Assembly: GCA_944390045.1 (NCBI GenBank)
Contig: CALXOO010000008.1
Span: 1-64,000, forward strand
DNA length: 64,000 nt
Direction of reading: 5' to 3'
DNA from: an uncultured Spirochaetales bacterium
GTDB taxonomy: Bacteria; Spirochaetota; Spirochaetia; Sphaerochaetales; Sphaerochaetaceae
The translations under genes were made by a program, and so were the position numbers. Shown here piece by piece: positions 9,215-46,777 of this stretch. The notes beneath the pieces were generated by a model, which saw only the letters and a list, made by a program, of their open reading frames with translations, was not told the origin of the DNA and did not search any database. Each line of letters opens with the position of its first letter. The first letter of the stretch is position 1.

Positions 9215-9916
9215 ATGGAAAAACTCACTCAAACGCTTGCCTCACTTCTGACCAGTGACGGAAAAGGCGTCATCTCCCTGACCGGAGCGGGAGGAAAGAC
9301 CAGCACGCTGAAAGGTCTGGGCGCATATTACCGCAGCCTCGGCATGAGCGTGCTGCTGACGACGACAACCAAGATACAGAGTCCGAAGTTCTTTGATTTC
9401 GGGGTGGATCATGCCTTCATGTCAGAGGAGGAAGTCCTGGTCCACAGTCCGGCAAAGGGGGAGAGCGTCTTCTATGCCGAGCGTCACATCATGGATCCAA
9501 AGAAGATGACGGCACCCAGGATGGAGGTCCTGGATGTGCTGATTGACCGATATGATGTCGTGATAATAGAGGCGGACGGTTCAAGACAGCTGCCGCTGAA
9601 GTACCATACCCAGAGGGATCCTGTGATCAACGGGCGCACCAGTGCCACGCTCGCCGTGATGGGTGCATCCGCCTACGGACAGTGCATTGACAATGTCTGC
9701 TTCGGCTTTGACAGCACGAAAACTGTCGACACTGCCTTTCTCAATTTCCTGATAGCCGATGGACAGGGGCTGCTCAAGGGCGCTGCCGGCAGGACGGCCG
9801 TGCTCGTGAACCAGGCAGATCTCATCCGGATCCCGCTGGCTGAGCTGGACTGCCCGGTGCCGGTGGTGCTTGGTTCCATCCTGAAGGATGAGGTGTATGA
9901 GATCAGGAATGTTTGA
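9215..9916 (+). CDS. yqeC: Selenium-dependent hydroxylase accessory protein YqeC
   Basis: This 233-residue P-loop protein has GAGGKTS near residue 28, followed by LTTTTKI. It belongs to the YqeC family, a conserved companion of selenium-dependent molybdenum hydroxylases. Its exact reaction is unknown; it is thought to help make or insert the selenium-modified molybdenum cofactor. The IEADGS motif after the central strand fits a Walker B-like site. It overlaps the downstream XdhC-YqeB gene by about 20 nt and is divergent from the LacI operon. The target hydroxylases are encoded 24-37 kb away in the same window. Confidence 0.9.
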   Translation: MEKLTQTLASLLTSDGKGVISLTGAGGKTSTLKGLGAYYRSLGMSVLLTTTTKIQSPKFFDFGVDHAFMSEEEVLVHSPAKGESVFYAERHIMDPKKMTAPRMEVLDVLIDRYDVVIIEADGSRQLPLKYHTQRDPVINGRTSATLAVMGASAYGQCIDNVCFGFDSTKTVDTAFLNFLIADGQGLLKGAAGRTAVLVNQADLIRIPLAELDCPVPVVLGSILKDEVYEIRNV

Positions 9917-11399
9917 GCGTGCCGCCCTGCTGGAACGCCTCAACAGGGCCTTCGCGGTAGTCACGATCATCTCCACGAGCGGAGCCGTGCCCCGCAAGTC
10001 AGCACGCATGCTGGTCGAGGAGGACGGAGCTGTCACCTCGACAATAGGAGGCCATCTGATCGAGAGGCAGGCCGCAGCCGAGGCCGTGAAGGCCATCAGA
10101 CGCGGCAGCGGAGGCGTGGTGGAAGTTGAGAACGGACGCTCAGGAGGGCGTATTTCTCTTATGATAGATGTTGTTAATCCGGTAAGGCGTGCCTACATCC
10201 TGGGCTTCGGGAATGTCGGGCGCAGTATTGCACAAGTCCTGCATTCTGTAGGTTATGAGATCCATGTCTTCGATGCCGCAGGAGCTGACTGTCCCTTCGC
10301 CTGCGAGGTCAGGGTCGGACCCTGGGACGAGATTCTCTCCGGTCTGACCGTGGACGAATACAGTGCGCTTGTCGTGACCTGCCATGACTGGGAGAGCCTT
10401 CTGCAGAAGACTGACCACAGCAGGGCATTCTATGTGGGTGCGATCTCCTCCAGAGTCCGTGTGATACCCCGCAAGGGGCTTTCCGTTCCGATGGGACTGG
10501 ACATAGGGGGAGAGAGTCCTGAGGAAATCGCAGTCGCGGTCGCGGCTGAGATCATGCGTGCCTGCAGCAGGCATAGCGGTCAGTCCCTGTCCCGCCGCCG
10601 TGAGCGTCTTGTCATTGTCCGCGGAGCCGGTGATCTGGCCACAGCGACAATCATTAAACTCTCAAGGGCGGGCTATGATGTGCTGGCGCTTGAGACACAA
10701 GAGCCCACACAGGTCAGGAGGAATGTCAGTTTCGCGGAGGCGGTCTATGAGGGAAGACACAGCGTGGACGGTCTTGAGGCTGTCAGGATTGACAGCCTGG
10801 AAGATGCATTCAGGGCATTTGACTCAGGGCTTGTCCCTGTCCTGGTCGATCCGCAGGCAGAGAGCATCACAAGACTGCACCCTGCAGTCGTCGTCGATGC
10901 GATAATAGCAAAGCGCAATCTGGGAACGCGCATTGACATGGCTCCCCTGACAATAGCCCTGGGACCAGGCTTTACGGCAGGCACCGATGTCGATGTCGTC
11001 ATAGAGACGCAGCGCGGCCACAATCTCGGGCGTATCATACGGTCCGGACAGGCTGCCGCGAACACCGGAGTGCCCGGAATCATCGCAGGCTATGGAGCGG
11101 AGCGTGTGGTGAGAAGCAGCTGCGGGGGAATCTTCAGGGGCCTCAGGACCTTCGGCGACATTGTCAGGAAGGGTGATGTGATAGCCTATACAGGCGATCA
11201 GCCCCAGACTGCCCCGATAGACGGAATGATCAGGGGTATGCTTCACAGCGGTCTGTCCGTGCCTGAGGGCTTCAAGATAGCCGACATAGATCCGCGGGGG
11301 GAGGGCATTGAATACGACAGCCCCTCCGACAAGGCAAGATGCATCGCAGGGGCTGTGCTTGAGGCTGTCGACTCCTTCTTTGCCTCGCAGCCTATCTGA
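9897..11399 (+). CDS. yqeB: XdhC-YqeB fusion, selenium-molybdenum hydroxylase maturation
   Basis: This ~500-residue protein joins two normally separate families. The N-terminal part (about 1-230) is XdhC/CoxI-like: a VVTIISTSGAVPRKSARM stretch and TIGGHLIE, then a Rossmann segment (ILGFGNVGRS) and an HDWE-VGAISS region. XdhC binds and hands over sulfurated molybdenum cofactor. The C-terminal part (about 240-500) is YqeB, with RGAGDLATA, ETQEPTQVRR and FAEAVYEG. YqeB belongs to the selenium-dependent hydroxylase system. Starts at 9888, 9897 and 9909 are possible; 9897 has the best-spaced site (AAGGA). The fusion suggests cofactor transfer and selenium modification are coupled. Confidence 0.87.
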   Translation: MRSGMFERAALLERLNRAFAVVTIISTSGAVPRKSARMLVEEDGAVTSTIGGHLIERQAAAEAVKAIRRGSGGVVEVENGRSGGRISLMIDVVNPVRRAYILGFGNVGRSIAQVLHSVGYEIHVFDAAGADCPFACEVRVGPWDEILSGLTVDEYSALVVTCHDWESLLQKTDHSRAFYVGAISSRVRVIPRKGLSVPMGLDIGGESPEEIAVAVAAEIMRACSRHSGQSLSRRRERLVIVRGAGDLATATIIKLSRAGYDVLALETQEPTQVRRNVSFAEAVYEGRHSVDGLEAVRIDSLEDAFRAFDSGLVPVLVDPQAESITRLHPAVVVDAIIAKRNLGTRIDMAPLTIALGPGFTAGTDVDVVIETQRGHNLGRIIRSGQAAANTGVPGIIAGYGAERVVRSSCGGIFRGLRTFGDIVRKGDVIAYTGDQPQTAPIDGMIRGMLHSGLSVPEGFKIADIDPRGEGIEYDSPSDKARCIAGAVLEAVDSFFASQPI

Positions 11400-33792: not shown

Positions 33793-36700
33793 ATGTCCGA
33801 CAAAATGAGAAGCGTTCCTTTCCGGAATCTTTTGAAGAGGGTCTTCGGAGAGCTTGCCAGCCATGATTCGATCTTCTCGATCAGGAGGGATTCATTCCGT
33901 CTGGGAAGAACCGGCGGCGATGTTGGTGTTTTCAGCCAGAAGGCGTCCTGCCCGCTGGGGCCTGCTGCCGGTCCGCACACACAGCTTGCCGGCAACATCA
34001 TAACGAGCTATCTGGCGGGAGCACGCTTCATCGAGCTCAAGACTGTCCAGATCATGGACACGCTTGAGATAGCCAAGCCCTGCATTGACGCGAGGGACGA
34101 GGGCTACAATGTCGAGTGGAGTACGGAGTACACCCTCCCGAAGGCCTATGATGAATACCTCAAGGCCTGGATCATCGTCCACATGCTTGACATGCTGGGA
34201 CAGGAGGACTGGAAGGAACCCTCATTCATCTTCAACATGTCTGTCGGATACAACCTTGAAGGCATAAAAAAGGAAAGGATGCAGCATTTCATCGACAGTA
34301 TGAAAGATGCGTCCGTTGACGGCCGTTTTGACGCTTATATCGACACTGCGCAGAGGCTCGTCGCAGACGGACTGCTCAGGGGTACTGCCTTCGAGGGCTG
34401 CGAGGAGCGTATCCTCAGCCGCCTGCCGCTGATCAGCAGGTGCATATCTCCCTCAGTCACACTCTCGACCATGCACGGCTGCCCCCCTGAGGAGATAGAG
34501 GCGATCTGCTCATACATGCTCACTGAGAAGGGACTTGACACCTTCGTCAAGCTCAACCCGACCCTGCTCGGCTATGATGAAGTGAGGTCGATTCTCGACA
34601 GCCTGGGTTACGATTATGTCGTCCTGAAGAGAGAGAGTTTCCTTCACGATCTCCAGTGGAATGACGCTGTCTCCATGCTTCACCGTCTGGCCGATCTGGC
34701 AGGGAAAAACGGCAGGGGCTTCGGGGTCAAGCTCACGAACACTCTCGGAAACGTCAATGACCAGGCGGTCCTCCCAGGGGAGGAGAGGTATATGTCAGGC
34801 CGCGCGCTCTTCCCGATATCGACGACAGTGGCGCTCCGGCTCAGCCAGGAGTTTGACGGACGCCTTCCCATCTCCTACTCAGGAGGTGTGAGCGCCATGA
34901 ATGTGGCCGCGCTTTATGAGACGGGCATCCATCCGATCACGGTCGCAACCGACATGCTCCATCCGGGCGGCTATATGAGGCTTTCCCAGATGGCCGACCT
35001 GGTCAGCCACAGCGCTGCCGGCAGCTATGACCATGTCGACACCGCCCTTCTGGAGAAGCTGTGCAGTGATGCCAGAAGACCTGACTCCATTTACCGCAAG
35101 GACTACAGGGGAGAGGACAACGTGAAGCTCGGCAAACAGCTGCCGATGAATGACTGTTATGTGGCCCCCTGTGTCGCCTCCTGCCCGATCCATCAGGACA
35201 TTCCCGAATATGTCTGCCTAATGGGCGAGGGACGCTACGCCGAGGCCCTGGCCGTGATCCTGGACAAGAATGCGCTGCCGAACATAACCGGCTGGATCTG
35301 CGACCACCAGTGCCAGCGCCACTGCAGCAGAATGGACTACGAGGGGGCAATCGCTATAAGGAAGATCAAGCGTCTGGCCTGTGAGCTGGGTGAGAAAGAG
35401 TATATGGAAGAGATCTGGACCTCTCCAGGTGAGCCTGCTGACGTGCGCGCTGCCGTCGTCGGTGCGGGACCCGCCGGTCTGTCAGCGGCATTCTTCCTGG
35501 CCCGTGCGGGGTTCAACGTGACGCTGTTTGAGCGTGAGGAGAAGGCAGGCGGTGTTGTCGCCAATGTGATCCCGGAGTTCAGGATACCTGAGCAGGTCGT
35601 ACAGAAGGATGTTGACTTCATCGCTCAGAACGGAGTGTCGATGATCTTCGGTGCGGATCCTTCCACGCTTGATGTCAGCAGTCTCAGGGCCGAGGGCTAT
35701 GACTGGATCTTCTATGCAGTCGGAGCCGAGAAGCCCAGAAAGGCCGCGATCAGCGGAAATGGTCCTGTCATAAGCGCCACTGAGTTCCTCAGGACGGCGA
35801 AGGAGGGTGAGGTCCCGCTTGGCTGGAAGATCGTCGTCATGGGCGGCGGAAACACGGCCATGGACGCCTGCCGTGCGGCTGCAAGGGCAGGAAACACTGT
35901 CACCTGCGTCTACAGGCGCAGCAGGGGCGAGATGCCCTGCGACAGGGAGGAGTTCGAGGCCGCCTGCGAGGATGGAGTGGAGTTCAGGCTTCTGACCAAT
36001 CCAAAGGACTTCACTGACGGCGTGCTCACGCTGGACGTGATGGAGCTCGGTGAAAGGGATGCCTCAGGAAGACGCAGGCCGGTTGCCAGCGGCGAGAGCG
36101 TGACAATCAGCTGCGACCTGCTGATCAGTGCCATCGGTGAGGAGACTGACAGTGTACTGCTGAAGGACCTCGAGACGGAGGCGGAGGAAGACTACAGGAT
36201 CGGAGATCACGTCTTTGTCGTGGGCGACAGTGTCAGCGGACCTTCGACTGTCGTGCGAGCCATGGCCAGCAGCCGGCATGCGGTGGACAGATGCATCGAC
36301 CTGGTCCTCGATGAGCTTGAGGAAGAAGATGATGATGAGTGCTGCGGGCATGAGCATGACGATGAGTGCTCCTGCGGCTGTCATGATCACGAGCACGGCC
36401 ATGATGATGAGTGCGCCTGTCATGATCATGATGATGAGGACGAAGATGAGGATGAAGATACTCTCCGAAGAAAGGAGGATGAGTACTTTGCCATGATCGA
36501 GGGCAAGAAGGCCTCACTTATTCCAGAGGGCGGAGAAGACTTCCTGAAACATGAGGCCTCGCGCTGTCTTGAGTGCTCATATCTGTGCAACAAGTGTGTT
36601 GATGTCTGTCCCAACAGGGCCAACATAGCACTTGATCTGAGAGACAGCGGACTTTTCGAGGATCCTTTCCAGATCCTGCACATCGATGCCTACTGCAACG

Positions 36701-36978
36701 AGTGCGGCAACTGTGAGACCTTCTGTCCATACGACGGAGGCCCGTACAGGAAGAAGTTCACGCTCTTCTCCAGCAGAAAGGACTTCCTCGACAGCACGAA
36801 TGACGGTTTCTACTATGATGACGGGCTGGTCACTGTCAGGCTCGGCGACAGGATAGAGAGCGGAAGGATAGATGAGAACGGAGACCTCGAGCTCGACATT
36901 CCAGAAGAGGTCCTGGCCATGATCAGTGAGGTGTTCATCAGCTGCAGGTATCTGCTAAATGAAGTGGATGAGGACTGA
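33793..36978 (+). CDS. ygfK: YgfK, putative selenium-linked iron-sulfur flavoprotein
   Basis: This 1061-residue protein is annotated in other genomes as a putative selenate reductase subunit, but is now linked to anaerobic purine breakdown. It has an N-terminal TIM-barrel-like half (about 1-430) and GltD-type Fe-S helices with CVASCP and CDHQCQRHC (about 458-515). A FAD-binding VVGAGPAGLSAA (about 552) and an NAD(P)H-binding VVMGGGNTAMDA (about 678) follow. A C-terminal ferredoxin pair holds CLECSYLCNKCVDVCP and CNECGNCETFCP (about 920-980). Between them residues 843-889 form an acidic insert with 7 Cys and 8 His. AAGGAGAG precedes the ATG. It probably moves electrons between NAD(P)H and a hydroxylase. 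Confidence 0.9.
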   Translation: MSDKMRSVPFRNLLKRVFGELASHDSIFSIRRDSFRLGRTGGDVGVFSQKASCPLGPAAGPHTQLAGNIITSYLAGARFIELKTVQIMDTLEIAKPCIDARDEGYNVEWSTEYTLPKAYDEYLKAWIIVHMLDMLGQEDWKEPSFIFNMSVGYNLEGIKKERMQHFIDSMKDASVDGRFDAYIDTAQRLVADGLLRGTAFEGCEERILSRLPLISRCISPSVTLSTMHGCPPEEIEAICSYMLTEKGLDTFVKLNPTLLGYDEVRSILDSLGYDYVVLKRESFLHDLQWNDAVSMLHRLADLAGKNGRGFGVKLTNTLGNVNDQAVLPGEERYMSGRALFPISTTVALRLSQEFDGRLPISYSGGVSAMNVAALYETGIHPITVATDMLHPGGYMRLSQMADLVSHSAAGSYDHVDTALLEKLCSDARRPDSIYRKDYRGEDNVKLGKQLPMNDCYVAPCVASCPIHQDIPEYVCLMGEGRYAEALAVILDKNALPNITGWICDHQCQRHCSRMDYEGAIAIRKIKRLACELGEKEYMEEIWTSPGEPADVRAAVVGAGPAGLSAAFFLARAGFNVTLFEREEKAGGVVANVIPEFRIPEQVVQKDVDFIAQNGVSMIFGADPSTLDVSSLRAEGYDWIFYAVGAEKPRKAAISGNGPVISATEFLRTAKEGEVPLGWKIVVMGGGNTAMDACRAAARAGNTVTCVYRRSRGEMPCDREEFEAACEDGVEFRLLTNPKDFTDGVLTLDVMELGERDASGRRRPVASGESVTISCDLLISAIGEETDSVLLKDLETEAEEDYRIGDHVFVVGDSVSGPSTVVRAMASSRHAVDRCIDLVLDELEEEDDDECCGHEHDDECSCGCHDHEHGHDDECACHDHDDEDEDEDEDTLRRKEDEYFAMIEGKKASLIPEGGEDFLKHEASRCLECSYLCNKCVDVCPNRANIALDLRDSGLFEDPFQILHIDAYCNECGNCETFCPYDGGPYRKKFTLFSSRKDFLDSTNDGFYYDDGLVTVRLGDRIESGRIDENGDLELDIPEEVLAMISEVFISCRYLLNEVDED
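36317..36459 (+). other. Segment coding a Cys/His/Asp-rich insert in YgfK
   Basis: Codons 842-889 of ygfK encode a low-complexity stretch. It contains Cys 850, 851, 859, 861, 863, 874 and 876, His 853, 855, 864, 866, 868, 870, 877 and 879, and a closing Asp/Glu run. It resembles metal-storage or metal-delivery tails. The DNA is a GATGA/CATGA-rich simple repeat, so it can expand or shrink by slippage. Confidence 0.8.
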
Positions 36979-36989
36979 AGGAGGAGCGA

Positions 36990-38333
36990 ATGTCAAGAAT
37001 TCTTATTGAGAACGTGACTGTCATCCAGACCCTTCCTCCATTCGAGGTGCAGGAGGGGCGTGACGTCCTGATCGAGGACAGCCGTATTGTCTCGACCGGA
37101 CCGGCCGGAAGCCACGCGGAGGCGGAGCGCGTCATTGACGGGCGCGGGAAGTACCTCATCGCCGGCAATGTCTGCTCGCATCACCATTATTATTCCGGTC
37201 TCTCCCGCGGCATGCTGATCAGCGCCGGTCCCCAGACGGACTTCATACAGGTCCTCAAGGAATGGTGGTGGCGTCTTGACAGGGCCCTGGACGAGGAGGC
37301 CTGCTACTACTCATCCCTCATCTGCTCGATGGATGCGGTGGCAAGCGGCACAACCTGCTGCGTGGATCACCATGCAAGCCCGTCCTATATTGACGGATCC
37401 CTCTCCACGATAGCTCGCGGAATGCGGGAAGTGGGGTTGCGCGGAGTCACCTGCTATGAGGTGACTGACCGGAACGGAGGAATGAGGGAAGTCGAGAAGG
37501 GCGTCGAGGAAAACGTCCGTTTCGCCAGACAGATCGACGAAGAGAGGCGCAGCAATCCTCATCCGATGGTAGAGGCAATGATCGGAGGGCATGCCCCGTT
37601 CACGCTCCCGGACGGAGCGCTTGAGCTGATGGGTGAGGCTGTCAGGAGCACAGGCCGCGGGATCCACCTTCATGTGGCGGAGGACAAGTACGATGTCGTG
37701 CACAGTCATCACCATTACAACAAGGACATCGTCACGAGGCTTGAGGAGCACGGACTGATCACGGACAGATCGCTCCTGGTCCATGCGCTCCACCTTTCAC
37801 AGGATGAGATTGACATCATCAACAGCCGTGATGCCTTCCTGGCACACAACCCGAGGAGCAACATGAACAACCATGTGGGCTACCTGAAGAACATCGCCAG
37901 GGTCAGGAACCTTGTCATCGGAACCGATGGCTGCGGCGGGAATATGTTCGAGGAAGTCAAGCTGGGCTTCTTCAAGCATAAGGACGAAGGCGGTCTCTTC
38001 TGGCCGGCTGACTTCGTCACGGCCCTTACCCGCGGCAACAGGCTTGTGGAGCGCTGCTTCGCTGACGGAAGGAAGTGGGGCAGGGTCGAGGCCGGCTACA
38101 CAGCCGATCTGGTTCTGCTGGACTACAGGGCGCCGACGCCTGTAGTTGATGAGAATGCCGCCGGGCATTTCGTCTGGGGCATGGGAAGCGGAAACGTGCA
38201 CAGCGTCATAATCGACGGCAGGCTGGTGTATGACAATCATGCCTTCACCGGCATTGACGCCGAGGCGGTGTACAGAAGGGCCCGCGAAGTTGCGCGCGAG
38301 GTCTGGAAACGTGCGGACAAAATCAAATCATAA
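36990..38333 (+). CDS. ssnA: SsnA-type amidohydrolase
   Basis: This 447-residue amidohydrolase-fold protein of the SsnA family is always found with YgfK-type clusters. Metal-binding features are SHHHYYSGLSRG (about 60), CVDHHASP (about 125), LHVAEDKYD (about 228), HALHLSQDE (about 268) and GTDGCGGNM (about 311). By family it should be a deaminase or ring hydrolase acting on a purine-derived compound; the reaction is not proven here. GGAG precedes the ATG, 11 nt after ygfK. Confidence 0.92.
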   Translation: MSRILIENVTVIQTLPPFEVQEGRDVLIEDSRIVSTGPAGSHAEAERVIDGRGKYLIAGNVCSHHHYYSGLSRGMLISAGPQTDFIQVLKEWWWRLDRALDEEACYYSSLICSMDAVASGTTCCVDHHASPSYIDGSLSTIARGMREVGLRGVTCYEVTDRNGGMREVEKGVEENVRFARQIDEERRSNPHPMVEAMIGGHAPFTLPDGALELMGEAVRSTGRGIHLHVAEDKYDVVHSHHHYNKDIVTRLEEHGLITDRSLLVHALHLSQDEIDIINSRDAFLAHNPRSNMNNHVGYLKNIARVRNLVIGTDGCGGNMFEEVKLGFFKHKDEGGLFWPADFVTALTRGNRLVERCFADGRKWGRVEAGYTADLVLLDYRAPTPVVDENAAGHFVWGMGSGNVHSVIIDGRLVYDNHAFTGIDAEAVYRRAREVAREVWKRADKIKS

Positions 38334-38349
38334 AACAATGGAGATAAGC

Positions 38350-39573
38350 ATGAGCATTCAGAAGACAATCAGGGAAATGGCTGAGAAGTACCGTGACTAC
38401 ACGGCCGAGACACTGTCCAAGCTGGTCAGGACCAAGAGCTACTCATCAAAGGAGGAGGATGTCTGCCGCCTCATCGTGAAGCTCTGCCAGGAGGCGGGAT
38501 TCGACGAAGTCAGGATTGACGGACTTGGATCTGTCGTTGCCAGAATAGGCAGCGGACCGAAGACACTGGCCTTTGATGCGCACATCGACACAGTGGAAGT
38601 CGGTAACCTCAAGAACTGGACTTTCGATCCCTTCTGCGGAGACATCAAGGACGGAAAGGTCTGGGGCAGGGGTGCCAGTGACCAGAAGGGCGGCGCCGCG
38701 AGCATGATCGCCGCAGGCCGCATGCTGAAGGAGCTGGGCTACAAGGGCGAGTACTCCGTCTATTTCACCTTCACCGTAATGGAGGAGGACTGCGACGGAA
38801 TGTGCTGGAAGTACCTCATCGAGGAGGAAGGCTTCAAGCCTGACCTCATTGTCTCCACAGAGCCCACAAGCTGCCGTATCTACCGCGGTCACAGAGGCAG
38901 AATGGAGATCAGGATCATACTGCGCGGAATTTCCTGCCACGGATCCGCTCCGGAACGCGGAGTCAGCGCCGCATACAAGGCGGCCCGCGCCGCGCTTGCC
39001 ATAGAACAGCTGAACAAGGACCTGCAGCCGGATGAGGACAACTTCCTCGGAAAGGGCACGATCACCGTCAGCCAGATCGACGTCAAGGGACCCAGCCAGT
39101 GTGCGGTTGCCGACTACGCCATGCTGTACTGCGACAGGCGTCTCACCTGGGGCGAGGATGCCGATCTCGCTATCAGTCAGGTCCGTGAGTACGTGTCCAA
39201 GGCGACAGGGGATGATCCTGACTCGATCATCGTCGAGATGCCGAACTACGAGAAGATCGGATGGACCAACAAGGAATACTCCCAGGAGCTTTACTTCCCG
39301 ACCTGGAAGCTGGATGCGGATCATCCGCTTGTCAGGGCGGCGGTCGCTGACTATGAGGCCCTGTACGGCAAAGAGCCCGTCGTGGACAAGTGGACCTTCT
39401 CCACGAATCTGGTCGCCACCACAGGAAGGCACAAGATCCCGGCAATCGGCTTCGGCCCCGGTGACGAGGCACAGGCACATGCGCCGAACGAGATCAACAG
39501 GGTGGAGGATCTGGTGATCTGCTCCGGATTCTATACGCTGCTTCCCTATGCTCTGGAGGGAAGACTGGATTGA
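38350..39573 (+). CDS. ygeY: YgeY-family M20 hydrolase
   Basis: This 407-residue M20 metallohydrolase is of the YgeY type, linked to selenium metabolism clusters. Zinc-binding signatures are FDAHIDTVEVG, GRGASDQKGGA, VMEEDCDG and STEPT; the C-terminal HAPNE supplies the last histidine. It should cleave an amide or carbamoyl bond in a small purine-breakdown product such as a diaminopropionate derivative. The open frame extends to 38230 inside ssnA, but the ATG at 38350 has GGAGA upstream. It completes the ygfK-ssnA-ygeY operon. Confidence 0.9.
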   Translation: MSIQKTIREMAEKYRDYTAETLSKLVRTKSYSSKEEDVCRLIVKLCQEAGFDEVRIDGLGSVVARIGSGPKTLAFDAHIDTVEVGNLKNWTFDPFCGDIKDGKVWGRGASDQKGGAASMIAAGRMLKELGYKGEYSVYFTFTVMEEDCDGMCWKYLIEEEGFKPDLIVSTEPTSCRIYRGHRGRMEIRIILRGISCHGSAPERGVSAAYKAARAALAIEQLNKDLQPDEDNFLGKGTITVSQIDVKGPSQCAVADYAMLYCDRRLTWGEDADLAISQVREYVSKATGDDPDSIIVEMPNYEKIGWTNKEYSQELYFPTWKLDADHPLVRAAVADYEALYGKEPVVDKWTFSTNLVATTGRHKIPAIGFGPGDEAQAHAPNEINRVEDLVICSGFYTLLPYALEGRLD

Positions 39574-43181: not shown

Positions 43182-43190
43182 GAGGTGAAT

Positions 43191-43907
43191 GTGAGACGGA
43201 TCATAGTCGCCAAGACAATGGAGGAGGCCTACAAGGCCAGAAGGGACAGTGCCGGAGCCGTCTATCTGACGGGAGGAACCGAAGTACTGCGCCTGGGCGG
43301 CCGGGCGGATGCCGGCAGCACGATCATAGACATTTCGTCCTTCCTTCCGGCTGACATCAGTCTGGACAGGGATAAGAATCTGGTGATAGGGGCCGCGGCC
43401 ACCTTCCAGGATGTCATTGACAGTCCCCTGACACCTGAATGGCTCAGGAAGGCCTGCCGCTACATGGCAAGTCTCAGCCTGAGGATGCAGGCGACCGTGG
43501 GCGGCAACATCGCCTCTTTAAGGGATGACAGCTATCTGATCCCGACACTGCTTGCAGCCGGAGCCAGGCTGAAGACCTATGGCAACAGGGGCTTTATGGA
43601 AGGCAGCCTCCAGGACTATGTGTCCAACGGCGGCTCACGCTATGCAATACTCTCCGTCACAGTTGACAGGGATGCCTGTGTGGCAAGCAGGCGGATCGCC
43701 CGTTCTTCTTCAACACACAGCGCGCTCAACATCGCGCTCGGCAGGGGAAGAGGCTTCTTTGCCGCGCTGAAGGGCAGCGGGATCCTTCAGGGCATTGAGG
43801 CGATCAATGCCTGCGAGCCTGTCGATGACCTGACCGGATCCGCCGGATACAAGCGCTACATCATCGGCCAGTGTGCCGGACTGCTTTCACAGGAGGTGGA
43901 GGAATGA
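43191..43907 (+). CDS. ygfM: YgfM-like FAD-binding protein
   Basis: This ~238-residue FAD-binding subunit differs from the preceding one and corresponds to YgfM, the partner of XdhD in E. coli. It has VYLTGGTEVLRL and VGGNIASLRDDSYLIPTLLA. It is shorter, ending soon after the flavoprotein domain. The start is GTG at 43191 with GGAGG 5 nt upstream; a GTG two codons earlier is possible. It overlaps xdhD by 4 nt (ATGA), so the two are coupled. Confidence 0.85.
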   Translation: MRRIIVAKTMEEAYKARRDSAGAVYLTGGTEVLRLGGRADAGSTIIDISSFLPADISLDRDKNLVIGAAATFQDVIDSPLTPEWLRKACRYMASLSLRMQATVGGNIASLRDDSYLIPTLLAAGARLKTYGNRGFMEGSLQDYVSNGGSRYAILSVTVDRDACVASRRIARSSSTHSALNIALGRGRGFFAALKGSGILQGIEAINACEPVDDLTGSAGYKRYIIGQCAGLLSQEVEE

Positions 43908-46777
43908 TCACATTCACCTTGAACGGAAAGAGAATCGAGACGGAACTGGACAAGGACATGAGGCTGCGTGATGCGCTCTATGCCCTTGGCTGTACCAGCG
44001 TGCGTGACAGTGATGACCATGAAGGCTTCACCGGCAGTGACATCATTATCTTCAACGGAAAGCCGAGATCATCAAACCTCACTCTGCTTTATAAGGCTGA
44101 AGGCGCCGAGATCAGGACGGCCGAGAGCCTCAGGAATGGCAGGGACATCAACTGGGTCCAGAAGGCCATGATCAGGGCCGGTGTCGTCCAGAGTGCCTAT
44201 AACTCCCCGACAGTCGCCCTCCTGCTGACCTGGCTGCTGGAGAACAAGCCGGATGCTGGACGTGAGGATGTGAAGGAGATCCTGTCCAGCGTATTCATCA
44301 GAGACGCCGGATATGAGCACTTCTATCTTGCGGTGAAGCTTGCCCAGGAGATGGCCCGGTACGGCGAGTACCGCAGTGCGGTCTCCCCTTCATTCCGCGA
44401 GAATCTGGAGTACATCGGAAAGCCCATGGACAAGGTCGACGGAGTCTCTCTGGTCGCCGGCGAGAAGGTCTACGTCGAGGACAAGGTGGAGGAGGGAAGC
44501 TGCGTGCTCGCAATTCTCCGTTCCCCCTATGCCATGGCATATATCAAGAGCATTGACACTTCTGAGGCCGAGGCGCTTGAAGGAGTCGAGGCCGTCATCA
44601 CGTATCTCAACTGTCCTGACATCTACTACATGCAGGCCGGACAGGGAGAGCCCGAGCCGAGCCCGTATGACAGGAGGCTCTTCAACCGCAAGGTGCGCCA
44701 TGTGGGCGACAGAGTCGCCGGAATAGTCGCGCGCGACCGTAAGACGGCTGACAGGGCAATGGAACTTATCAGGGTCGAGTATGAGCCGCTCAGGCCGGTG
44801 CTGTCGGTTGAGGACGCCATGGCCGTGGACGCGCCGCTTGTCCACAACGGAAAGGTGGAATACGTCTCAGGAGCTCCGGATGATCTTGATGAGTACAACA
44901 GGAATTATGACGAGAGGGACGGCAAGGTCATATACCAGTTCCCGCTCCACGGAGACATAAGGCACAACATCGCGGCCGGAGCCCACGGAGGAATCGGAGA
45001 TGTTGAGAAGGCCTTCAGGGAGGCGGATGCCGTGGTTGAGGCCACATACAGGACGAGCCAGGTCCAGTGCACCCCGCTTGAGCCCCATGTCTGCTGGTCC
45101 AAGCTGGAAAACGGCAGGCTCGTGCTGCACTGTTCCACACAGGTTCCATACCATGTCAGAAGGATCGTCGCCAAGGTCTGCCAGATCCCGGAGAACAAGG
45201 TCCATGTCATCAAGGAACGTGTGGGCGGCGGCTATGGCAGCAAGCAGGATATCCTGGTCGAGGACCTGTGCGGCTATGCCACCTGGCTGACAGGAAAGCC
45301 CGTCTATTTCCGCAACAGCCGTGCGGAGGAGTTCTATGCCAACAGCACGCGCCATCCGATGAGGCTGACAGTGAAGATGTCGGGCATGAAGGACGGCACG
45401 ATAACAGGAATCTACATGGATGTCAGGGCAAATACCGGGCCATATGGTAACCACTGCCTCACTGTTCCGATGAACGCCAGCAGCAAGACGCTGCCGCTTT
45501 TTGCGGTTCAGAACATGTACTATGACCTCAACACCTATTACAGCAATATCCCGCCGGCCGGAGCCTATCAGGGATATGGTGCTCCGAAGGGCTACTTCGC
45601 CATCATGAGCTGCATGGATGAGCTGGCGCATAAGCTCGGTGTGGATCCGCTGGAGATGGCACTGAAGAATGTCGTCGACGAGGGCTATATGCTTGAGATT
45701 CTCAAGGGCCTCGGAGAGGGCAGGGAAGGTGCTGTCGTGCCTGTCGGATCCTGCGGTGTCAGGCAGGCGCTTCTCAAGGGTGCCGAGATGATCAACTGGG
45801 GACACAGGGAGGTCAGTGAAGATCCTGACTGGGCAATCGGAAAGGGCTTTGCCATGATCCAGCAGGGATCAGGACTTCCCGGTCTGGACCAGTCCAATGC
45901 TCAGTGCAAGCTCCTTCCGGACGGAAGCATTGTCCTGCTCTCAGGAGGTGCTGATATCGGAACAGGGCTGGACACGATCAGTGCCAAGATCGCCTGTGAA
46001 CTGCTGAAGGTTGATCCGTCCAGAGTCAGCGTAGTATCCGGAGACACCGATTCGTGCCTCTTTGACACCGGTGCCTATGCCTCAAGCGGAACTTATTTCT
46101 CCGGAAATGCAAGTCTCAATGCGGTGCGTGATCTCAGGTCCAGAATGCTTGCAGAGGCTGCCAGGCAGATGGGTGAGGATGCTTCTGGCCTCGATCTGGA
46201 GTCTCCCGGTTACGTTGTCTCGGGAAAGACCGGGAAAAAACTCAGCTACCAGAAGCTGAGTCATGATGCCCTTGCCGGCGACGGTACAGGTGCAATTGTC
46301 GGAACAGGCAGTTTCGCGACTTCCAACAGCGCGATACCCTACGGCGCACACTTCGCCCAGGTGGCGGTAAACAGACGCACTGGTGAGATCAGGGTACAGA
46401 AGTTCTACGCGCTGCAGGATGCCGGTACTCCTATCAATCCTGAGCTCGCGCTCTGCCAGATGTACGGTGCCGCGATGAAGTCCATCGGACACACTCTCTA
46501 TGAGGACATGGTCCTGGACAAGAACGGCAGGTGCATAAATGCGAACTTCACGGACTACTGTGTTCCGATGGTCGCGGAGGCACCGGAAGATTTCAAGGCA
46601 GTTCTCATCGACGTGAACGATCAGTACGGCCCCTTCGGAGCCAAGAGCATCTCTGAGATCGCAACCAACGGTGCGGCTCCCGCTATCGCCAATGCGATCT
46701 ACGATGCGGTGGGTGCCAGGGTGCGCTCCTGGCCGATCACCCCGGAGAAAATTCTCCACGAACTGGGAAAGTTCTGA
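43904..46777 (+). CDS. xdhD: XdhD, selenium-dependent molybdenum hydroxylase with cluster-less [2Fe-2S] domain
   Basis: This 957-residue protein matches E. coli XdhD (956 residues as I recall) in length and order. Residues about 1-160 have the shape of a [2Fe-2S] domain (SVRDSDDHEGFTGSDIIIFNG, then VVQSAYNSPTVALLLTWLL), but none of the eight cluster cysteines is present. The molybdenum domain follows, with VGGGYGSKQDI (about 440), GAYQGYGAPKG (about 553), GGADIGTGLDT (about 682) and GPFGAKSISEI, with the catalytic glutamate, near 912. The ATG at 43904 overlaps the ygfM stop; the frame open to 43871 is not used. It must take or give electrons through another protein, with YgfK as the obvious candidate. 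Confidence 0.92.
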   Translation: MITFTLNGKRIETELDKDMRLRDALYALGCTSVRDSDDHEGFTGSDIIIFNGKPRSSNLTLLYKAEGAEIRTAESLRNGRDINWVQKAMIRAGVVQSAYNSPTVALLLTWLLENKPDAGREDVKEILSSVFIRDAGYEHFYLAVKLAQEMARYGEYRSAVSPSFRENLEYIGKPMDKVDGVSLVAGEKVYVEDKVEEGSCVLAILRSPYAMAYIKSIDTSEAEALEGVEAVITYLNCPDIYYMQAGQGEPEPSPYDRRLFNRKVRHVGDRVAGIVARDRKTADRAMELIRVEYEPLRPVLSVEDAMAVDAPLVHNGKVEYVSGAPDDLDEYNRNYDERDGKVIYQFPLHGDIRHNIAAGAHGGIGDVEKAFREADAVVEATYRTSQVQCTPLEPHVCWSKLENGRLVLHCSTQVPYHVRRIVAKVCQIPENKVHVIKERVGGGYGSKQDILVEDLCGYATWLTGKPVYFRNSRAEEFYANSTRHPMRLTVKMSGMKDGTITGIYMDVRANTGPYGNHCLTVPMNASSKTLPLFAVQNMYYDLNTYYSNIPPAGAYQGYGAPKGYFAIMSCMDELAHKLGVDPLEMALKNVVDEGYMLEILKGLGEGREGAVVPVGSCGVRQALLKGAEMINWGHREVSEDPDWAIGKGFAMIQQGSGLPGLDQSNAQCKLLPDGSIVLLSGGADIGTGLDTISAKIACELLKVDPSRVSVVSGDTDSCLFDTGAYASSGTYFSGNASLNAVRDLRSRMLAEAARQMGEDASGLDLESPGYVVSGKTGKKLSYQKLSHDALAGDGTGAIVGTGSFATSNSAIPYGAHFAQVAVNRRTGEIRVQKFYALQDAGTPINPELALCQMYGAAMKSIGHTLYEDMVLDKNGRCINANFTDYCVPMVAEAPEDFKAVLIDVNDQYGPFGAKSISEIATNGAAPAIANAIYDAVGARVRSWPITPEKILHELGKF

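Follow-up and report, generated by a model that had tools for sequence, protein, structure and literature searches.

The closest described counterpart of the protein segment considered here is the C-terminal tail of the prolyl isomerase SlyD in E. coli and H. pylori, which is about 50 residues long, unstructured, rich in Cys, His, Asp and Glu, supplied with CxC and HxH motifs, and variable between species. The E. coli tail binds up to seven Ni(II) ions with micromolar or better affinity, and the H. pylori tail also binds Zn(II) (PMC7055735). Variable His-rich segments of HypB and UreE have been proposed as metal stores (PMC7055735). The protein that carries the segment, YgfK, has only recently been assigned as the reductase that dearomatises the purine ring when urate is degraded anaerobically, a process with medical relevance to gout. 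A study of 2025 describes E. coli YgfK as a flavin/Fe-S reductase whose substrate is yanthine (2,8-dioxopurine), the product of uric acid reduction by XdhD; YgfK dearomatises this compound, and acted on it only in the presence of SsnA, in assays that had added ZnCl2 (PMC12507026). A commentary restates this role in yanthine dearomatisation (PMC12990295). YgfK itself is reported to serve uric acid breakdown as a flavin/Fe-S reductase, and to be neither a selenate reductase nor a Se/Mo enzyme; the label of its family profile, TIGR03315, still reads putative selenate reductase subunit.

The window analysed is a stretch of 64,000 nucleotides from an uncultured Spirochaetales bacterium, and its relevant features are collected in Table 1. 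Its YgfK matches TIGR03315 (Se_ygfK) with 1249 bits against a curated cut-off of 835.3, over profile positions 1-1012 and hence the full length, and both this match and the neighbourhood of ssnA, ygeY and xdhD place it in the family. The presence of SsnA, YgeY, the XdhD-type enzyme and YqeB/YqeC marks the window as a locus for reductive urate breakdown that also includes genes for the selenium-molybdenum cofactor. The original prediction that the partners of YgfK need molybdenum and selenium agrees with this content, namely an XdhD-type Se/Mo hydroxylase, YqeB and YqeC. The listed ygeY reading frame shares 104 bp with ssnA; its true start is probably internal, at about residue 45, because the family match begins there. 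Among the loci of relatives that were scanned, ssnA adjoins ygfK in at least 35 of 38, with or without the arm described below. E. coli YgfK belongs to the same family and has the same ssnA and xdhD neighbourhood, with a short plain linker instead of the arm. The FeS-FAD-NAD(P)H half of YgfK (residues 453-845) is homologous to dihydropyrimidine dehydrogenase and to FAD subunits of the NfnA/GltD type, from which YgfK differs in domain order, the FMN domain coming first; phmmer matches to solved structures of NfnA, GltD and dihydropyrimidine dehydrogenase end at or before residue 845, before the arm. To our knowledge, no such arm occurs in dihydropyrimidine dehydrogenase or in NfnA/GltD-type FAD subunits. 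The host enzyme family is a known one, and what is new is a real, selected, lineage-specific arm of a metal-binding type.

Table 1. Features of the window around the YgfK arm, with positions counted from the first nucleotide of the window.
Feature	Position	Strand	Evidence or details
YgfK, 1061 aa, NAD(P)H/FAD/FMN/[4Fe-4S] reductase of the reductive uric acid pathway	33793..36978	+	TIGR03315; Pyr_redox_2, Fer4_20 and 4Fe-4S dicluster domains
Cys/His/Asp/Glu-rich arm, YgfK residues 843-889, EEEDDDECCGHEHDDECSCGCHDHEHGHDDECACHDHDDEDEDEDED	36319..36459	+	7 C, 8 H, 15 D, 12 E; three CxC, five HxH
C-terminal [4Fe-4S] dicluster domain of YgfK, Cys 925-978, directly 3' of the arm	36565..36738	+	Fer4_7/Fer4_10 matches at 931-986; Cys invariant in the alignment
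SsnA amidohydrolase, works with YgfK; start 11 bp past the end of ygfK	36990..38333	+	TIGR03314, 531.9 bits (cut-off 455.5)
YgeY family hydrolase	38230..39573	+	TIGR03526, 478.8 bits (cut-off 321.5)
FAD-binding subunit resembling YgfM	43185..43907	+	TIGR03312, 81.9 bits, under the cut-off of 241.5
XdhD-type molybdopterin oxidoreductase (in E. coli, urate to yanthine reductase)	43871..46777	+	TIGR03313, 1173.9 bits (cut-off 1101.9)
YqeC, selenium cofactor biosynthesis	9215..9916	+	TIGR03172, 129 bits (cut-off 73)
YqeB, selenium-dependent molybdenum cofactor biosynthesis	9888..11399	+	TIGR03309, 344.8 bits (cut-off 220)

The arm connects the FAD/NAD(P)H half of YgfK to its C-terminal [4Fe-4S] pair. 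The residue numbers and the counts of Cys and His originally predicted for this segment, along with its dense Asp/Glu run, were matched exactly, and its placement between the NAD(P)H-binding half and the C-terminal ferredoxin pair is borne out by the domain matches. The densest stretch of 47 residues in YgfK holds 16 Cys and His together, against a maximum of 8 elsewhere in the protein, and 10,000 shuffles of YgfK gave a mean maximum of 7.4 per 47 residues and a highest value of 13. The Cys, His and acidic content of the arm is far beyond chance. The description of the underlying DNA as a simple GATGA/CATGA repeat holds in part: there is a marked codon skew, with Asp encoded by 13 GAT and 2 GAC codons in the arm versus 25 and 54 in the rest of YgfK, and His likewise skewed to CAT, but the repeat itself is only weak and degenerate, TRF reporting an 18-bp period with 2.7 copies and 66% matches plus a 27-bp 12-mer array. 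The Cys codons of the arm (5 TGC, 2 TGT) are used as elsewhere in the protein.

No in-frame TGA that might encode selenocysteine was found in the arm, and selenocysteine was also rejected for the arms of relatives, in which TGA is either an ordinary stop (G033, G065) or lies outside the arm; the latter is the case in the near-closed relative G058 (locus L031), whose ygfK frame is broken by an in-frame TGA at residue 550, through either a sequencing error or decay to a pseudogene. Pfam gave no match for six of seven arms and only sub-threshold ones for the seventh (E 0.11 or worse), and a search of the PDB with the arm gave none. A metallothionein or other known metal-binding domain was accordingly set aside, neither a curated profile nor a solved structure matching the arm. 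In an AlphaFold model built from a six-sequence alignment (mean pLDDT 60, and below 50 at residues 844-892), residues 848-887 form a low-confidence coil between helices 819-847 and 888-907, which weakly suggests that the arm is disordered.

At the position of the arm, YgfK proteins of E. coli, Salmonella, Enterococcus, Collinsella and many other spirochaete families have a plain linker of some 12-20 residues. In the window's own family, the linker ranges from 19 to 85 residues and contains up to 19 Cys, with at least seven Cys and His together in 40 of 59 genomes and at least three in 51 of the 59. Neighbouring families (f3, f4 and f17) have smaller arms, some of them with His only. On a tree made without the linker, the arm is clustered in one clade, requiring 8 changes against 21.1 in shuffles, and none of 500 shuffles was as low. 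This distribution is consistent with one main gain followed by several losses or erosions, a history in which the tree alone cannot separate gain from loss. The arm has been lost completely, and YgfK kept, in three members of the window's own genus (G004, G007 and G014) and in G052, G062 and G070, and in G024 the linker has seven Cys and no His. Lineage specificity of the insert was originally put forward as a point to check, and its length was expected to vary perhaps; alignment confirms both, since YgfK proteins outside this spirochaete clade are without it and it is no universal module of the family. The linkers of L046 and L056 are metallothionein-like, with 19 Cys within 75-85 residues.

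Locus L050 repeats near-identical CDCGCHDHDDE units and L017 has a CAC GAT run, which shows that duplication or slippage lengthens the arm. The longer the linker, the more Cys and the more His it contains (rho 0.84). In seven close pairs for which it could be computed, the dN/dS of the linker was 0.05-0.12 in six, including the ungapped pairs L007/L008 and L028/L029, and 0.33 in the seventh (L025/L026). These values are not neutral, which removes the arm as a functionless product of DNA slippage. The change in length is mutational, and the composition of the arm, including the identity of its Cys and His, is held by purifying selection. As originally proposed, the segment is an arm joined to a redox protein; it sits in YgfK and is selected at the protein level.

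A rival reading is an acidic flexible spacer, whose length, charge and disorder would let the ferredoxin domain reach its partner, and into which Cys and His would have drifted by GAT/CAT slippage without a role of their own. The linker that remains in arm-less relatives, about 27-38 residues long, is acidic, and the GAT/CAT codon skew of the arm and its lengthening by slippage or duplication in L017 and L050 would also fit, and part of the selection on the arm may concern acidity or disorder alone. We nevertheless regard a spacer as an unlikely account of the arm, given how the residues of the arm have been kept. Retention over the cells of 17 aligned pairs is 95% for Cys, 90% for Asp/Glu as a class, and 85% both for His and for 'other' residues. 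Cys is two changes away from Asp, yet is five times more frequent than codon-position shuffles of the linkers predict (215 observed, 42 expected), while Tyr (22 observed, 120 expected) is below expectation, as are Asn, Val, Gln and Arg; the same shuffles predict 74 stop codons where there are none, a zero that is trivial for coding sequence, unlike the Cys and Tyr counts. CxC motifs are enriched about 4-fold in the linkers (103 observed against 27 expected) and are present in 33 of 39 aligned family sequences. Both the composition counts and the CxC counts include shared ancestry and tandem units such as those of L050. Divergence at synonymous sites is about equal or higher in the linker compared with the remainder of ygfK, while the residues of the linker have been held.

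We lean, by a small measure, towards a different account, in which the arm is a disordered, selected, multi-site metal-binding segment in a loop of YgfK, restricted to one spirochaete lineage and perhaps acting as a local buffer. Its similarity in kind to the SlyD tail points to the binding of several metal ions of the soft or borderline class. The proportions of Cys and His are 15% and 17% in the YgfK arm against 12% and 29% in the tail of E. coli SlyD, which is far less acidic (16% Asp/Glu, compared with 57% in the arm). Sequence homology between the two was not detected, and SlyD has its tail at the C-terminus of a prolyl isomerase, whereas the putative metal binder in YgfK is internal to an Fe-S flavoenzyme; membership of the SlyD family was rejected, the host being YgfK and having no FKBP domain. 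The segments of HypB and UreE resemble the arm in being variable and attached to a working protein, and differ in being carried by nickel chaperones. Bacterial metallothioneins are comparable to the arms of L056 and L046 in Cys content, but the arm differs from them in having no Pfam match, no conserved spacing and far more Asp/Glu and His, and in not being a separate protein.

The metal on such an arm in the cell would most likely be Zn(II), since HypB is missing from the window's own genome and from most relatives and since the YgfK-SsnA assays were run with ZnCl2; Cu(I), Ni(II) and Co(II) might also bind in vitro. More tentatively, the arm may buffer metal locally, next to SsnA and to the low-potential [4Fe-4S] clusters. 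It could then shield the clusters of YgfK from thiophilic metals and keep SsnA metallated, SsnA being a hydrolase of the metal-dependent type whose own reaction has to drive that of YgfK forward. The number and density of ligands would matter for a buffer of this kind, and their exact geometry would not; the fast turnover of arm length and of the Cys:His ratio favours a buffer over a catalytic site or fixed cofactor. In the loci of the arm-less relatives L034, L037, L048 and L049, ssnA still adjoins ygfK, and as these relatives keep both proteins, the arm is a dispensable accessory that SsnA does not require. The occurrence of a selected arm across a spirochaete family suggests that the supply or protection of metal (or selenium) limits the urate pathway in these anaerobes. 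Natural orthologues with and without the arm within one genus, beside the partner hydrolase, offer a clear test system.

Selenium offers another use for clustered thiols: they could bind selenide or Se(0), in the form of R-S-Se(-) or of a metal selenide, for delivery to the Se-dependent Mo hydroxylase system, XdhD, YqeB and YqeC being encoded in the same locus. On this reading, CxC motifs would be kept along with selD and eroded where selD has been lost. A CxC arm is found in 45 of 50 genomes with selD and in 2 of 9 without (Fisher p 7e-5, a raw value without phylogenetic control), or, among genomes that are at least 90% complete, in 38 of 41 and 0 of 4, respectively; missing selD is an uncertain call in draft genomes, and the selD-negative G069 is a single contig. 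With phylogeny taken into account, there are too few independent contrasts for the link to be significant: of five, a mean of 1.8 agree, 0.3 run the opposite way and 2.9 show no difference. There are exceptions in both directions, with 19 Cys in G026, in which neither selD nor YqeB was detected (the assembly is 88% complete), and with selD but no CxC in G004, G016, G027, G052 and G062. Furthermore, E. coli has SelD/SDMH genes yet is without the arm, the arm is dominated by His and Asp/Glu, and YgfK is not the Se enzyme. We thus consider the transfer of selenium by the arm, and a role in loading the Se-dependent Mo hydroxylase step with Se or metal selenide, improbable, and treat the correlation of selD with CxC as a lead only, not as evidence of function. 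The original idea of a metal- or selenium-handling arm is left with a lineage-specific, ligand-rich segment; its selenium half loses the selD correlation under phylogenetic control.

The window's own genome (G000) has selD at contig C1:165077-165997 and no selA above threshold, and its SelD is therefore presumably not used for selenocysteine; this orphan-SelD pattern is in line with SelD serving a selenium-dependent Mo hydroxylase. A link of the arm to selA was rejected, as selA is present in only 4 of 59 genomes and follows no pattern, and no clear link was seen to YqeB, which is present in the arm-less G007 and was not found in the arm-rich G026. YqeB has been stated to occur only with selD (PMC2276186, from 2008). 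Contrary to this, six relatives (G007, G050, G059, G069, G070 and G072) have YqeB (TIGR03309) and no detectable selD, G069 among them as a single contig.

The abundance of CxC motifs, and the position of the arm between the electron-donating and Fe-S halves of YgfK, may also suggest a redox switch, in which CxC disulfides formed on oxidation would change how freely the C-terminal Fe-S domain moves and stop electron flow in air. We give this little credence, as it would leave unexplained the 8 His and 27 acidic residues of the arm, the His-only arms of L059 and L060, and the His/Asp run of L017. Storage of nickel for a nickel enzyme, as proposed for the His-rich tails of HypB and SlyD, would suit the SlyD-like composition of the arm but is highly improbable: in a search that covered [NiFe]-hydrogenase through HypB, neither the window's genome nor most relatives with an arm had HypB above its cut-off, and the annotated genes of the window include no recognised Ni enzyme gene.

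Among 65 matches to CAYGANCAYGAN in the window's genome, a C/H/D stretch similar to the arm occurs outside YgfK in a single protein, where it forms the tail of a TPR protein. This 428-aa TPR-type protein is encoded on contig C45 (L153:1295-2581, minus strand), and its tail, EEHHHEDDCHCHDHDSGHSHQHHGDEGED, is a second one rich in Cys, His and Asp; the gene adjoins TsaE/TsaB-like genes.
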